A model generated the notes under the pieces. The model searched no databases, had not been told where the DNA came from, and saw only the letters and a program-made list of their open reading frames with translations. A stretch of DNA of 21,196 bases from positions 1 to 21,196 of the IMG/VR virus record IMGVR_UViG_3300020470_001401. One strand, written 5' to 3'. The DNA is from a virus. Position numbers and translations under genes: made by a program. Shown piece by piece: positions 1,879 to 10,555 of this stretch. Position 1 is the first letter of the stretch. Every line of letters begins with the position of its first letter.

Positions 1879-2495
1879 TAACTAGAATAGTCAGAGACCT
1901 AGACAGAGTGTTAGACCTGTTAATAGACGAAGAACAAATCGTTGCAATCTTTCAGGGTAAAGGAGAATGGGGGCCGAGAGCACTAGGGAATCGTTCTATA
2001 CTGTTTGACCCAAGACACGAAGAAGCAAAACAGATTGTTAATAACGTAAAGAAGAGAGAACACTACAGACCTTTTGCAGGTAGTGTCATGTTAGAACACG
2101 CACACGATTGGTTTCATATGTTGCAACTTAAAGAATCGCCTTGGATGAGTTTTGCTATCCAAGCAAAGGATATTGCATATGAGAAAGTTCCGACACTGGT
2201 TCACGCAGACGGAACGTGTCGTATCCAAACAGTTACCTATGAACAGAATCCCAACTATTATAATTTAATCGAAGGGTTCTATAAGAGAACAGGTGTACCA
2301 ATGATATTCAACACTTCATTTAATTTAGGTGGAGAAGGATTAGTGGAAACCATAGAAGATGCAATCGACACTTGTAACAGGTCAGAAATAAATTGGTTGT
2401 ACGTTCCCGAAGACCAAGACATAGATATACCCGAACACCTCTTAAGATTTAAAAGACTAGAGGACGTGAATAAGAATGAGTTCGCAGATGGATAG
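1875..2495 (+). CDS. Carbamoyltransferase, C-terminal subunit
   Basis: These 206 residues match the carbamoyltransferase C-terminal domain. FQGKGEWGPRALGNRSIL is the family hallmark (Q-G-x-x-E-x-GPRALGNRSI), followed by DPR, the REHYRPFAGSV motif and the late FNTSFNLGGEGLVET motif. This domain normally performs carbamoyl transfer from carbamoyl-adenylate delivered by the N-terminal domain, and in single-chain enzymes the two are covalently linked. Here translation starts within the ATGA overlap, so coupled synthesis and assembly of a two-subunit enzyme is likely. All hallmark residues are present, so decay is unlikely. The alternative is one polypeptide joined by a frameshift; no slippery heptamer is evident at the junction. 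Confidence 0.85.
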   Translation: MITRIVRDLDRVLDLLIDEEQIVAIFQGKGEWGPRALGNRSILFDPRHEEAKQIVNNVKKREHYRPFAGSVMLEHAHDWFHMLQLKESPWMSFAIQAKDIAYEKVPTLVHADGTCRIQTVTYEQNPNYYNLIEGFYKRTGVPMIFNTSFNLGGEGLVETIEDAIDTCNRSEINWLYVPEDQDIDIPEHLLRFKRLEDVNKNEFADG

Positions 2496-3081
2496 AGTCT
2501 ATGACTTGATATGGGGTACTCCTATAACTGCAATAGAAATTGACCCAACCCCAATCGATGAATGGTTTAAGAATGTTCCCATATTAACTTTATGTACAGA
2601 GGAGTTTACATTCAGTCATTGTAAAACTTCACGAGGTACAAAAGAAAATGATGAAGTTGACTATACAACAATACTGGATATAGTAAATGAAGAGTTTGGA
2701 AAGTTCTTAGACTTTCTTGGGCCTAAGTGTGGAATCGACAGTAACTTTGAAGTGCCTTGGATTAACATATATGGGAAGAATGGGTTTCAAGATTCACATG
2801 ACCATCAAGGTGATAAGTATTCAGACTTCTCATATTGTTATGTACATGAATCAGGTGACTCGCACATTGTGTTCAAAAATAGATTTGCAACCAACAGTGA
2901 TATGTGTCTAAAAGATTTACTTCATGCCTATTATGCTCAAGACTATGTACCGACACTAAAGAAAAAAGGAACATTATATATTTTCCCGTCCACTGCATAT
3001 CATTCAGTATCACCCAACAAAAGTGACGAACCAAGAATTACAATTTCGGGTAATATTAAACTTACACCCGAAGATAAATAA
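2476..3081 (+). CDS. 2OG-Fe(II) oxygenase-like protein
   Basis: This 201-aa protein resembles the phage-type 2-oxoglutarate/Fe(II) dioxygenases that hydroxylate proteins, nucleobases or small molecules. After a PWINIYGKNGF segment comes HDH at 108-110 (first iron ligands; whether H108/H110 or H110/D113 is used is unclear). Next is a jelly-roll-like core, then GTLYIFPSTAYHSV with the distal His (H176), and EPRITISGNI with R187 as the likely 2OG-binding arginine. The purine-rich agaggac at about 2459-2465 serves as Shine-Dalgarno for the ATG at 2476. It overlaps the carbamoyltransferase C-subunit by 20 nt, so the two are co-translated and may work on the same substrate: hydroxylation, then O-carbamoylation. 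That link is inference. Confidence 0.75.
   Translation: MSSQMDRVYDLIWGTPITAIEIDPTPIDEWFKNVPILTLCTEEFTFSHCKTSRGTKENDEVDYTTILDIVNEEFGKFLDFLGPKCGIDSNFEVPWINIYGKNGFQDSHDHQGDKYSDFSYCYVHESGDSHIVFKNRFATNSDMCLKDLLHAYYAQDYVPTLKKKGTLYIFPSTAYHSVSPNKSDEPRITISGNIKLTPEDK
3073..3080 (+). promoter_or_regulatory. Late-type box GATAAATA before the Fe-S carrier gene
   Basis: GATAAATA matches the T4 late consensus in seven of eight positions, lies across the upstream stop codon and ends 6 nt before the A of the ATG at 3086. The same spacing is seen at 243/249, 3740/3746 and 10554/10560. It may be a late promoter giving a leaderless mRNA or an AU-rich translation-start element. Confidence 0.4.
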
Positions 3082-3085
3082 CTAC

Positions 3086-3421
3086 ATGGACTTAGAAGTT
3101 ACAGACATTGCAATTACAAAACTTATAGAGAAGAACGTTGACAAGGTGAGACTTGGAATCACTGGTGGTGGTTGTAGTGGTTATGAATATGTGTTTGTTG
3201 AAGACGAATTTAAAGACGGCGATTTAGAAATAGATTACGGTAAGTTTAAGTTTTTAATAGATACAATGAGTCAACCTTTTTTAAATGGGTTGACATTAGA
3301 TTACATAAAAGAAGGATTGCAGGAATCATTTACATTCCAAAATCCTAATGAAGAAGCCAGTTGTGGTTGTGGAGTGAGTATTACATTTAATGAAAACATC
3401 GTCAGCAAAAGCCAAGGGTAG
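3086..3421 (+). CDS. A-type iron-sulfur carrier (IscA/ErpA/HesB family)
   Basis: The 111-aa product fits the A-type carrier family, which holds and hands over [2Fe-2S]/[4Fe-4S] clusters. It shows the strand VRLGITGGGCSGYEYVF with the first ligand C30, and the C-terminal SCGCG with C93 and C95, giving the family's C-x(62)-C-x-C pattern. The frame is open further upstream to 3023, but those extra residues lie inside the previous gene and do not match the family. The ATG at 3086, five bases after the upstream stop, gives a normal-length protein. It has no Shine-Dalgarno. Possible clients are host Fe-S enzymes or the phage radical SAM protein at 9094. Confidence 0.88.
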   Translation: MDLEVTDIAITKLIEKNVDKVRLGITGGGCSGYEYVFVEDEFKDGDLEIDYGKFKFLIDTMSQPFLNGLTLDYIKEGLQESFTFQNPNEEASCGCGVSITFNENIVSKSQG

Positions 3422-3737
3422 AAAACTACAACAGTGGTTTACCAAAGTTCTTATCGAAGGACTTAATCTAAACGAAGACGATTTAGAATCAAGACCTATG
3501 GGTTCACAAGGTGAAGATATAATCATGGGTCGTGAATCAAGAGAACAGTTCCCCTACTCTATCGAATGCAAGAATCAAGAAGCAGTTAACGTATGGAAAG
3601 CATACGAACAGGCAGAATCCAACTGTAAAGGTTATGAACCTTTAGTTGTAATCAAACGTAATAGAAGTAAACCCCTTGTGTTAGTTGATGCAGAACATTT
3701 CGTCAAATTAATTGCAACAATTACCGAAAAGTCATAA
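3390..3737 (+). CDS. PD-(D/E)XK nuclease-like protein
   Basis: This 115-aa basic protein has the compact arrangement of small PD-(D/E)XK nucleases, as in archaeal-type Holliday junction resolvases: an N-terminal helix with conserved charged residues, PMGSQGEDII carrying the likely metal ligand D43, and the strand YSIECKNQE with the E59-x-K61 catalytic pair. Next come an AYEQAES helix and the strand PLVVIKRNRSKPLVLV. It overlaps the Fe-S carrier gene by 32 nt in another frame. It may resolve recombination intermediates during packaging-coupled replication, or cut host DNA. The fold assignment is fairly firm; the substrate is inferred. Confidence 0.65.
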   Translation: MKTSSAKAKGRKLQQWFTKVLIEGLNLNEDDLESRPMGSQGEDIIMGRESREQFPYSIECKNQEAVNVWKAYEQAESNCKGYEPLVVIKRNRSKPLVLVDAEHFVKLIATITEKS

Positions 3738-3740
3738 ATA
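3733..3740 (+). promoter_or_regulatory. Late-type box CATAAATA before the RimK-RimB fusion
   Basis: CATAAATA spans the stop codon of the nuclease gene and ends 6 nt before the ATG at 3746. With T4 late spacing the transcript would start at that A. Late expression would fit a protein packaged into capsids. No Shine-Dalgarno is visible in front of 3746. Confidence 0.45.
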
Positions 3741-3745
3741 GTAGA

Positions 3746-5140
3746 ATGAAGTCCTTTAACGAGATAATTACAGAAGCAAAAGACGTTTCAAAACGAGAAG
3801 ACCCATACAGACTGGTCGTACTTGCTGAGCGTCCAAAGAAAATTTCTAAGACAGGAACTTCTTTTAAACTCACGCAGAAAGCAGAGAAGTTAGGAATCAC
3901 AACTTACAACTGTAGAATCAACGGTGCGTTTCTTCGGTTTGACGAAGACAAACAGATTGTTACCATTCACAACGAAGGTGACGAGAAAGGATTTGAAATG
4001 GACGAGGACACTATAGTGTTCATTCGTGGTGACGTTACTAAGAAAGATTCCTACATGGATTTAATTTCTCAGATTGAGAGATACGGTATTCCATGCAATA
4101 ACACTAGGGAGTGTATTGAAGTGTGTTGCGACAAGTTCCGAACATATCTCCGTCTACAAGAAACAGGAATGAACCAACCACGCACGGTATTGATTCCAAA
4201 TGATTCACCTGAAGCAGTTGACGCTGCTCACGAAGCACTTGATAACAAATTCCCAATGGTACTTAAAACACTTAGTGGTTCAAAAGGTGTTGGTGTGATT
4301 CTAATTGAAACCGAAAGAAGTTTGCTGTCGCAGGTTTCTTTGATTTATAAGATTGACCCTTACACCGATATTCTATTACAAGAATATATTGAATCTGATT
4401 ATGACGTAAGGTGTGTAATCGTTAATCGTGAAATCGTTGGTGCAATGAAACGTAATAAGATTACAGACGACTTCAGAAGTAATGCATCTCAAGGTGCGAA
4501 GGTTGAGTTGATTGAAATGACTGAACTGGAAAAAGAAGAATGTCTGAAGGCTGCGAAAGGTGTAAACGGTCAGTGGGTTGGTGTTGATTTCATTCCTGCA
4601 AAGAATCGTGTTAAACAACCACCTTACATTCTAGAGGTTAACCATAGTGCAGGAAGTAAAGCAATTTCAGATGCAATCGAAGAGGACATTACTAAAATGG
4701 TTCTTAAACTTTATTTCGACAGAGAGATATGGAGAAAGGAACCTAAACAGTGTGGAGTGTTAGAAACGTTTACAGTGGACGGGCAGGAAATGACTGGTAA
4801 GTTAGATACTGGAAACTCGACTACAGTGTGTTCACTTCACGCAGACGAAGTAAGTGTAAAAGGTAAAACAGTCACTTGGACATTTAACGGAAAGAAACAT
4901 TCCAAACCATTACATAGAAAAGTTACACTTAAGAAACCTGCAGAGACAAGACCAGTTGTTTTGATTGACGTAGATTTTTTGAACACTACTTATAAAGACG
5001 TTGAAGTGTCACTTGACTCAAGAATATCAATTCCATTCCTAGTGAATCGTGATTTAATGCAACGTGCAAACGTCATGATTAACAGTGCAAGGAAGTTCAT
5101 GTTAACAAATAAATCAGACGAAACTATAGAAACCAGTTGA
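3746..5140 (+). CDS. RimK-like ATP-grasp ligase fused to RimB-like aspartic protease, with N-terminal capsid-targeting signal
   Basis: This 464-aa protein joins two opposing activities. Residues about 20-325 form a RimK-type ATP-grasp ligase: CCDKFRTYLRL helix, MVLKTLSGSKGVGV with the nucleotide-binding lysine (174), LLQEYIESDYDVRC, and the metal-binding VGVDF...ILEVNHSAGS end (278-304). RimK adds glutamates to the C-terminus of ribosomal protein bS6. Residues about 338-455 form a retropepsin-like aspartic protease domain of the RimB type, with GKLDTGNSTTVC (catalytic D354-T-G) and SRISIPFLVNRDLM; this family trims such tails. Residues 1-11 (MKSFNEIITEA) align without gaps to the T4 internal-protein signal MKTYQEFIAE/A, including the I-x-E/A cleavage site of the prohead protease. 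The protein is therefore likely packaged, processed and injected. The TAAATA box 6 nt before the start is consistent with late expression. Confidence 0.85.
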   Translation: MKSFNEIITEAKDVSKREDPYRLVVLAERPKKISKTGTSFKLTQKAEKLGITTYNCRINGAFLRFDEDKQIVTIHNEGDEKGFEMDEDTIVFIRGDVTKKDSYMDLISQIERYGIPCNNTRECIEVCCDKFRTYLRLQETGMNQPRTVLIPNDSPEAVDAAHEALDNKFPMVLKTLSGSKGVGVILIETERSLLSQVSLIYKIDPYTDILLQEYIESDYDVRCVIVNREIVGAMKRNKITDDFRSNASQGAKVELIEMTELEKEECLKAAKGVNGQWVGVDFIPAKNRVKQPPYILEVNHSAGSKAISDAIEEDITKMVLKLYFDREIWRKEPKQCGVLETFTVDGQEMTGKLDTGNSTTVCSLHADEVSVKGKTVTWTFNGKKHSKPLHRKVTLKKPAETRPVVLIDVDFLNTTYKDVEVSLDSRISIPFLVNRDLMQRANVMINSARKFMLTNKSDETIETS

Positions 5141-8704: not shown

Positions 8705-9101
8705 ATCCGTAGTAAGACCCCTTAAACTAAACGAAGTTTCTTATAATCTCAAAGATTTCTTTTACGGAACTGAACATACAGTTCTTCGTTTTGACTTACC
8801 CCAAGACCATACAGTTAGAATAGGTTCACACTATAACGGTGAAACTTTATTCTACTATGAGAAAGATAACGTAATAAAGTTTAGTTCATTTGGTGACCAT
8901 AACGCACGAGGTCAGCTATCTTGTTTTCTTTGGAAACCAAAAGGTGACCCACAATCAAATGAATTAAATGCAGATGACGATGCACAATTTGTCTGCATAC
9001 CAAAAGACCAAACTGATTTCAAAGAAGGTGACGAAATAGTTTATACACTTGTAAGGGAAACAGAAACTGAGGAACGTCATATCAGAGTTGACCATGTCTA
9101 G
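8667..9101 (+). CDS. Hypothetical beta-rich protein
   Basis: This is a 144-aa protein overlapping the previous gene by 38 nt in another frame. GAGGAAG at 8654-8660 is well placed for the ATG at 8667 and less so for the in-frame ATG at 8673. Alternating hydrophobic/polar strands (TVLRFDLPQ, TVRIGSHY, GETLFYYEKDNVIKFSSFG, QFVCIPKD, DEIVYTLVRE) suggest a beta-sandwich, possibly virion-associated. There are only two cysteines and no catalytic motif that I can see. It is followed directly by the radical SAM gene, so it is a candidate partner or substrate of that enzyme, without direct evidence. Confidence 0.65.
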   Translation: MVMTIGETAGTFKSVVRPLKLNEVSYNLKDFFYGTEHTVLRFDLPQDHTVRIGSHYNGETLFYYEKDNVIKFSSFGDHNARGQLSCFLWKPKGDPQSNELNADDDAQFVCIPKDQTDFKEGDEIVYTLVRETETEERHIRVDHV

Positions 9102-10026
9102 TAATATCCCAATAGTCGCAGTTGACCAATACGACTTTTTAGAACATAGAAAAGAACAGGAAAAGAAACACTGGTCAAAAAAATCAGAAAGAGAATCAAA
9201 TCCCCTCGACTCAATTCTTACAGTCGAGATTAACACTACAGAGTTATGTAACAGGACGTGTGTGTTTTGTCCAAGACATGACCCTGAAGTATTTCCAAAT
9301 AGAAACTTACACTTAACAATTAAAGGTGCAAATATAATTGCAGAAGAGTTAGGGTGTAATGGTTACACTGGTAAAATATCTTTTAGTGGATTTGGAGAGA
9401 ACTTACTCAACCCACACTTCCCTGAAATCATAAAGGCATTTAGATTTGAATTACCACAAGCAACAATCGAGTGTAACACTAACGGAGATAGGTTAGACGA
9501 AGAATATGTTACTAGACTTTATAGAAGTGGTTTAGATTTACTCTACATAAATCTATATGACGGTATTCATCAAATGGAACACTTCGACACTATGATGGCA
9601 AATGCAAGAATAAGAGAAGAGGATTATAAGTATCGAATGCACTGGGGTGATTTCGAGAAACACGGATTGATTTTAAATAACAGGAGTGGTGTAATTGATT
9701 GGGTTGGAATTGAAGAGTCGGATATTAAAAGTCTTGTTGGTAAGCCTTGTCATTACCCTTTCTATAAAATGTTTGTCGATTGGAACGGAGACGTATTATT
9801 CTGTTCAAACGATTGGGGAAGAGAACACGTTGTTGGAAACTTACTGCAACAATCCCTTCATGACGTTTGGTTTAGTAAACCTATGGCAAAGATACGAAAA
9901 AAACTTATGCGAGGAGACCGTAGTCTTTCTCCATGTAACAAGTGTAGTGTAGACGGTTCACTATTTGGAAAACCGTCATTTGACTTAGTTAAGGAGTATT
10001 ATGAAAGTAGTAATAACAGGAAGTAG
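9094..10026 (+). CDS. Radical SAM protein with SPASM-like C-terminal domain
   Basis: This 310-aa protein carries the radical SAM signature C52-NRT-C56-VF-C59 after an EINTTEL strand, the GE-type motif SFSGFGENLLNP (97-107), and a C-terminal auxiliary-cluster region with C219 (GKPCHYPF), C237 (GDVLFCSNDWG) and C281-NK-C284. Such SPASM proteins modify peptides, proteins or small molecules using 5'-deoxyadenosyl radicals. The frame extends to a TTG at 9088, but the ATG at 9094 is the natural start. The Shine-Dalgarno is weak. The reading frame overlaps the SDR gene by 26 nt. The pairing suggests a two-step modification pathway; the substrate is unknown. Confidence 0.85.
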   Translation: MSSNIPIVAVDQYDFLEHRKEQEKKHWSKKSERESNPLDSILTVEINTTELCNRTCVFCPRHDPEVFPNRNLHLTIKGANIIAEELGCNGYTGKISFSGFGENLLNPHFPEIIKAFRFELPQATIECNTNGDRLDEEYVTRLYRSGLDLLYINLYDGIHQMEHFDTMMANARIREEDYKYRMHWGDFEKHGLILNNRSGVIDWVGIEESDIKSLVGKPCHYPFYKMFVDWNGDVLFCSNDWGREHVVGNLLQQSLHDVWFSKPMAKIRKKLMRGDRSLSPCNKCSVDGSLFGKPSFDLVKEYYESSNNRK

Positions 10027-10555
10027 TGGACTTGCAAAAACAATCGGAGATGTGATTGTTAGAACTCCACACGCAGGAGAAGTACACCTAGTGTCTCATG
10101 TTCGTGCAGAGAGTACAATCAAATGGGACGACCACGAGGTTTTTATCAACTGTGCTCATGTCGGGTGGTGGCAAACAGAACTACTAATGGAAGCATATGA
10201 ACACTGGAAGAATGATAGTACGAAAACAATCATTAATATTTCAAGTCGTGCAAGTCAACCCAACATATCAAAAGGATATTTGTATGCTGCTCAGAAAGCT
10301 TCTTTAAACCATTTATCAAACAACCTAGTGTATAACTCAGATAAGAAGTGCCGTATCACTACACTAAATCTAGGACTGTTAGAACATGAACTTCCTTCAA
10401 TTACATATAATGAAGTCGCAAATTGGATTTACAAACACTGCACTGGAAGTAAACATATTGATATACCTGAAATGACATTCCAACACGCAGAGAACTATCG
10501 AAGTGTTCAAAGTGATAAAGAAACACTAAGAGAGTACGAAAACTTTACTAAATAA
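10001..10555 (+). CDS. Short-chain dehydrogenase/reductase (SDR)
   Basis: The 184-aa protein has the SDR Rossmann signature VVITGSSGLAKTIG (glycine pattern at 7-16), an INCAH segment at 49-53 in the place of NNAG, catalytic Ser in IINISSRAS (81-82) and the active-site Y95-x-x-x-K99 in YAAQKAS, so it is likely an active NAD(P)-dependent oxidoreductase. It is shorter than the usual 250 residues, with a trimmed C-terminal substrate region. AAGGAG at 9991-9996 is a strong ribosome-binding site located inside the radical SAM gene. It could reduce or oxidise a product of that enzyme. Confidence 0.82.
   Translation: MKVVITGSSGLAKTIGDVIVRTPHAGEVHLVSHVRAESTIKWDDHEVFINCAHVGWWQTELLMEAYEHWKNDSTKTIINISSRASQPNISKGYLYAAQKASLNHLSNNLVYNSDKKCRITTLNLGLLEHELPSITYNEVANWIYKHCTGSKHIDIPEMTFQHAENYRSVQSDKETLREYENFTK
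10547..10554 (+). promoter_or_regulatory. Late-type box ACTAAATA before the 82-aa gene
   Basis: ACTAAATA carries the TAAATA core, overlaps the upstream stop codon and ends exactly 6 nt before the ATG at 10560, like the boxes at 236, 3073 and 3733. There is no Shine-Dalgarno sequence in front of this ATG. Confidence 0.4.

Follow-up and report, generated by a model that had tools for sequence, protein, structure and literature searches.

Bacteriophage T4 packages and injects the ADP-ribosyltransferase Alt, the classic case among what are, to our knowledge, few phages known to inject host-modifying enzymes. T4 also carries the internal proteins IPI, IPII and IPIII, small proteins with a ten-residue N-terminal tag ending in (I/L)-x-E↓A, where the arrow marks the cut; none is a two-domain ligase-protease. 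IPI is an inhibitor of gmrSD (PMC3012670). Ligase and protease are joined in one chain in a chromosomal bacterial RimBK hybrid, Desulfotalea psychrophila DP2392, in the order RimB-RimK and with no tag described (PMC11957791). Here we analyze a viral DNA stretch of 21,196 nucleotides (IMG/VR record IMGVR_UViG_3300020470_001401; hereafter the window), in which one open reading frame encodes a RimK ligase fused to a RimB protease in the opposite order, behind a T4-type capsid-targeting tag. The product is probably a virion-cargo enzyme that is packaged, loses its tag, enters the host, and both writes and erases a glutamate mark. This would be a known type of packaged host-modifying cargo with a new enzyme in that role. 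It would resemble T4 Alt as a virion-borne host-modifying enzyme, but the two are unrelated in enzyme and chemistry.

The N-terminal tag of the RimK-RimB fusion

The tag and the fusion were both noticed in an original prediction made from the sequence, and both observations are confirmed. The window protein shares 6 of 11 residues with the N-terminus of T4 IPII and IPIII, MKTYQEFIAEA, at the positions that had been named (M1, K2, E6, I8, E10 and A11). The corresponding BLOSUM score of 32 (p = 7.5e-6 per N-terminus) ranks first among the 39 open reading frames of the window, and none of 2121 internal-methionine 11-mers from three related genomes scores as high.

Structural comparison places the tag outside the enzyme fold. 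Residue 1 of the solved RimKs aligns at residue 21 of our model, which makes residues 1–20, tag plus linker, an addition to the enzyme. The AlphaFold2 model, built from 29 homologues with a mean predicted local distance difference test score (pLDDT) of 82, replaced a poor earlier prediction from a shallow alignment (pLDDT 60). It shows a short helix at residues 4–12 followed by an unstructured linker, with pLDDT below 50 for residues 1–17. Column entropy averages 1.43 bits over residues 1–11 and 2.32 over residues 12–20, compared to 0.95–1.33 in the enzyme domains.

Fusion homologues consistently lacking the tag would have spoken against the original prediction, and the comparison had the opposite outcome: a literal [I/L]-x-E is present in 26 of 29 dereplicated members, while shuffled sequences (n = 2000) gave a mean of 7.3 and a maximum of 16. 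The tag is kept across the family despite adjacent indels. It is one residue shorter in some homologues (MKSFNEITEA, MKSFREIIEA), with the site still intact. All 66 sequences of the Mosig clade contain [I/L]-x-E. Within these, F6 and E12 of the tag are invariant despite varying codons, P3 is only I or L, P2 is free (six residues), P1′ is A, D, E or G, and the linker is variable. Such a pattern is that of a prohead-protease site. Chance resemblance of the N-terminus was rejected on the basis of the score statistics, the shuffle test and the Mosig-clade conservation. RimK-like phage ligases lacking a RimB domain (S-CAM8 and two faecal-sample contigs) have no tag and start directly at the fold.

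Virion detection in YerA41 and head genes of relatives

The strongest evidence for packaging is that in a second lineage the enzyme bears that lineage's own head-protein tag. Yersinia phage YerA41, which is not close to the marine phages, encodes a homologue (gp066, g112) with the same domain order, covering 95% of the length at 32% identity; its relative GN1 also has a homologue. The g112 product, 'Ribosomal protein modification protein', is asterisked in Table 3 of PMC7354516 as detected in purified particles by liquid chromatography–tandem mass spectrometry (LC-MS/MS). Gene order (ribonucleotide reductase beta, ribonucleotide reductase alpha, one gene, the homologue) links g112 to the GenBank entry YerA41_066, 'structural protein'. 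Our literature search for packaged RimK or RimK-RimB proteins found no report beyond this table entry, which is undiscussed in the part of PMC7354516 considered here.

The N-terminus of the YerA41 homologue, MNTLNQSPARRLLNKFEAADE, is unlike the T4 tag and differs from that of the window protein. Its tag, LNKFEA, belongs to an element written as L-N-x-KFE[A/S] or, more broadly, L-x-x-KFE[A/S/G], which is common to the N-termini of six further proteins, gp205, 206, 208, 209, 210 and 059, most of them virion-detected. The pattern occurs eight times among 46,291 YerA41 residues, and seven of these fall in the first 26 positions of a protein (p about 2.5e-6, for a pattern picked after viewing the sequences). 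Of the seven KFE-tagged proteins, counting the homologue, six bear a structural label (hypergeometric p 2e-4 to 3e-3, depending on the count of YerA41 virion proteins used). One of them, gp210, has a match to PHROG 2667 ('internal head protein') that begins at residue 24, right after the tag. When viral contigs were scanned on the basis of YerA41, no more relatives came up, and the second tag type therefore depends on this phage. The gp205–210 genes (39741–43979 of the YerA41 record) encode small proteins sharing the N-terminal tag MSRISxLNKKFEA, and the cluster lies near the genes for the major capsid protein (200c) and the maturation protease (202c). The arrangement resembles a group of proteins packaged as cargo.

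The window, a 21-kb fragment, has no recognised head gene, and head genes were examined in two sister records: G001 (145.9 kb), in which the homologue shows 72% identity, and G002 (120.7 kb), in which it shows 84%. Both encode gp21-, gp22-, gp23- and gp20-like proteins, and their major capsid protein propeptides contain L-E-E↓A-A-P at residue 52. The propeptides of Mosig and Melnitz read F-L-S-E↓A-A-P, and that of T4 gp23 likewise ends in FLTE↓A. A gp21-type protease with a matching capsid-protein site is thus found in G001, G002, Mosig and Melnitz, and the predicted propeptide site, L-x-E↓A, is of the same kind as the end of the fusion tag.

A search for the tag on other proteins, which had been proposed with the original prediction, found it on one to three other small proteins in each sister genome. 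The T4-like tag is rare in such genomes and no general property of their proteins. In G001, the three N-termini nearest the T4 tag are MKKFNQFMAEQ, from a protein of 132 aa, MKSFKQFLEEE, from one of 66 aa, and that of the RimK-RimB homologue. Relatives of the 132-aa protein occur in G002 (139 aa, tagged) and in pelagiphage HTVC008M (137 aa), the latter beginning with MKSFKDFQ and having no I-x-E site. Two members of this family were scanned against PHROGs without a match, and the family is a candidate for an uncharacterised internal head protein.

Packaging is well supported by two independent tag types and by the published virion detection of the homologue; together with the conservation of the tag, Table 3 of PMC7354516 gives strong support to this part of the original prediction. 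For the window phage itself we infer packaging, cleavage, injection and catalysis, with injection at infection likely. The N-terminal tag would direct the protein into the prohead core, where a gp21-type prohead protease would cut it off after E10. The mature fusion would then be packaged alongside the DNA and be delivered into the cell upon infection. In the host, the RimK domain may glutamylate an acceptor, for which the C-terminus of a host protein is the most probable candidate. The RimB domain may trim the poly-glutamate and stimulate the ligase, such that one molecule could both write and erase the mark.

Catalytic domains and possible acceptors

The predicted ligase-protease architecture is borne out by RimK profiles and structure, by the DTG triplet and by PF05618 matches in homologues (Table 1). 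Pfam RimK matches residues 129–320 (3.3e-31), and the NCBIfam model rimK_fam (TIGR00768) scores 156.5 bits against a cutoff of 143.4, which places the protein in the RimK family. A phmmer search of the PDB returned RimK at the top (7qys, 4e-23), in an alignment that matches the FRSN, GVD and EVN motifs. The best matches in a PDB fold search are solved RimKs; Pseudomonas syringae RimK 7qys superimposes on the model over 287 residues (Z 30.2, root-mean-square deviation (rmsd) 2.5). Residues K130, K174, R244, N246, D281, E297 and N299 are invariant among the 29 homologues. The window protein therefore shares the fold and the ATP-grasp catalytic residues of Escherichia coli and Pseudomonas RimK, but differs from these in its tag, linker and fused protease. 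It also differs in the active-site loop. E. coli RimK residues H215 and R216 are reported to line the active site (PMC10092738), and S248 and Q249 take their positions in the window protein. The score for PRK10446, the equivalog model of the 30S ribosomal protein S6–L-glutamate ligase, is 84.8 and lies far under the cutoff of 331, and the NCBIfam runner-up, MptN (1.3e-36), stands above S6 ligase (6.1e-24).

The protease domain was barely probed by the PDB fold search, the lists of which are dominated by the ATP-grasp domain. PF05618 has no match on the window domain alone and scores above the gathering threshold in the homologues L030 (6.5e-7) and Mosig (2.4e-7). A viral 'ATP-dependant zinc protease' model aligns with the domain (rmsd 2.2 over 128 columns), and the YerA41 homologue matches retropep_RloA2 at 7.8e-6. 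PHROGs gave no match to the whole window protein. D354, T355, G356, H365, R402 and R426 are invariant in the 29 diverse homologues. The domain resembles the RimB and RloA retropepsin-like proteases in its DTG, the downstream histidine and the R402/R426 pattern, but differs from these in being fused to the C-terminus of a ligase. In position and spacing, the two arginines may correspond to R114 and R137 of RloA, which bind poly-glutamate. The RimB motif, which we take to be DTGA, reads DTGN here. The C-terminal tail ends in acidic residues in most homologues.

Table 1. Positions of the fusion gene and its parts in the window, and of a small-protein family with T4-like N-termini in related phages
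Feature	Position	Strand	Detail
RimK-RimB fusion open reading frame	3746–5140	+	464 aa; N-terminal start MKSFNEIITEAKDV
T4-type late-promoter-like ATAAATA	3734–3740	+	starts exactly 12 nt 5′ of the ATG
Capsid-targeting tag MKSFNEIITE, residues 1–10	3746–3775	+	predicted cut after E10 (I-x-E↓A)
Variable linker, residues 11–20	3776–3805	+	column entropy; low pLDDT
RimK-family alpha-L-glutamate ligase (ATP-grasp), residues 21–328	3806–4729	+	profile matches, structure alignment
RimB/PF05618 retropepsin-like aspartic protease domain, residues 338–452	4757–5101	+	PF05618 in homologues; viral model; retropep_RloA2 in YerA41 homologue
Catalytic D354-T355-G356	4805–4813	+	invariant in 29/29 homologues
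Variable acidic C-terminal tail, residues 453–464	5102–5137	+	mean entropy 2.02
132–139-aa family with T4-like N-terminus	G001 51417–51815; G002 113644–114063; HTVC008M 113582–113995		MKKFNQFMAE; MKKFKDFLDES; MKSFKDFQ

Because the catalytic residues of both domains are intact, a ligase and a protease that work together on glutamate chains are a sound reading. The ribosomal target of the original prediction is plausible, but the evidence here does not support it: the S6-model score is low, the active-site H-R pair is S-Q, a look through the related phage records G001–G004 turned up no bS6 gene, and the RimBK hybrid failed to glutamylate RpsF in a published assay (PMC11957791). Quite possibly the substrate is not bS6 but a small molecule or a protein outside the ribosome, as for MptN, CofF and LysX/ArgX, which would be compatible with packaging and injection. 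The window protein passes only the general rimK_fam cutoff, with MptN outscoring the S6 ligase, the active-site histidine and arginine are replaced, and RloA-RloC is a RimB/RimK-like pair with other roles. However, the solved structures closest to the model belong to RimKs that glutamylate proteins, proteases of the RimB type act specifically on protein-bound poly-glutamate, and the likeness of R402/R426 to the poly-glutamate-binding arginines of RloA, if it holds, points the same way. On the structures and the protease specificity, host bS6 is our leading guess as acceptor, held tentatively. That widespread marine T4-like phages inject a poly-glutamate writer and eraser that remodels host ribosomes through bS6 before phage gene expression, as a translational counterpart of T4 Alt, is a bolder proposal that we regard as rather doubtful.

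Alternative roles, expression and distribution

The packaging evidence would be identical if the enzyme acted in head assembly, with injection incidental. It might, for example, add glutamates to scaffold or internal proteins, trim these proteins, or produce acidic poly-glutamate in the prohead. Free poly-alpha-glutamate can be made by RimK, gp67 is extremely acidic, and T4 heads hold acidic peptides cleaved from gp22 and gp67. We consider such a role unlikely. The prohead core forms in the cytoplasm, and an enzyme without a tag could act there too. Most T4-like phage records lack the gene (only ten match), which argues against a general assembly function. Very unlikely, in our judgement, is an enzyme that stays in the cytoplasm in middle or late infection, its N-terminal segment being a conserved amphipathic helix for oligomerisation or regulation and no targeting tag. 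The modelled helix is consistent with this, as are the other phage RimK-like ligases that work without a tag and the transcription of the YerA41 homologue in the middle phase (PMC7354516). However, the segment has no fixed place in the model, and its conservation is of the protease-site type. The YerA41 homologue, itself listed as virion-detected, has a different N-terminus that is common to unrelated virion proteins.

The same middle-phase transcription weighs against a virion-cargo enzyme, and so do several further observations. The YerA41 virion list (63 proteins, 5% false discovery rate) includes ribonucleotide reductase and DNA ligase; because it contains such metabolic enzymes, detection of the homologue as lysate carry-over is possible. 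Three of the 29 representatives are without a literal [I/L]-x-E, namely YerA41, which has its own tag, L093, and L112 (V-R-E). The late-promoter-like element is missing from some homologues. Melnitz has the tag and the ligase without the protease domain. Not every member thus carries the eraser: packaging goes with the ligase, while in this one lineage the protease is optional.

The late-promoter-like element is present at −12 in the window and in the homologues L005 and L006, and the ATAAATA hints at late expression of the window copy. The motif [A/C]TAAATA shows a sharp maximum at −12, where it precedes 12 genes of G001, 7 of G002 and 6 of Mosig. This exact 12-nt spacing to the start codon suggests very short or leaderless late mRNAs in these phages.

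Marine relatives of the fusion are abundant, with 525 in one scan and 221 in another, counts that may overlap. A fusion in a bacterial genome was rejected: the sole close match, L143, comes from a phage contig that was binned with a Sphingobacteriales metagenome-assembled genome and has neighbours as in the window. Its presence there may be contamination or a hint of the host. Upstream of the fusion, a NolO-like carbamoyltransferase is encoded as two overlapping genes for the N- and C-domains (697–1878 and 1875–2495). The split is probably real and not a sequencing error, because L143 has the same split (1525–2739 and 2726–3343). The window also encodes a 2-oxoglutarate-Fe(II) oxygenase (2476–3081) and a radical S-adenosylmethionine gene overlapping a short-chain dehydrogenase/reductase (FabG-like) gene (9088–10555); with the carbamoyltransferase, these are several unexplained modification enzymes.

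The cultured marine phages Mosig and Melnitz, together with YerA41, allow direct testing of the proposed packaging and activity. If the virion-cargo reading is true, protein glutamylation would be a new chemistry among virion cargo. The same enzyme with different tags in two phage lineages would make the tag a practical handle for finding injected effectors in uncultured phages.
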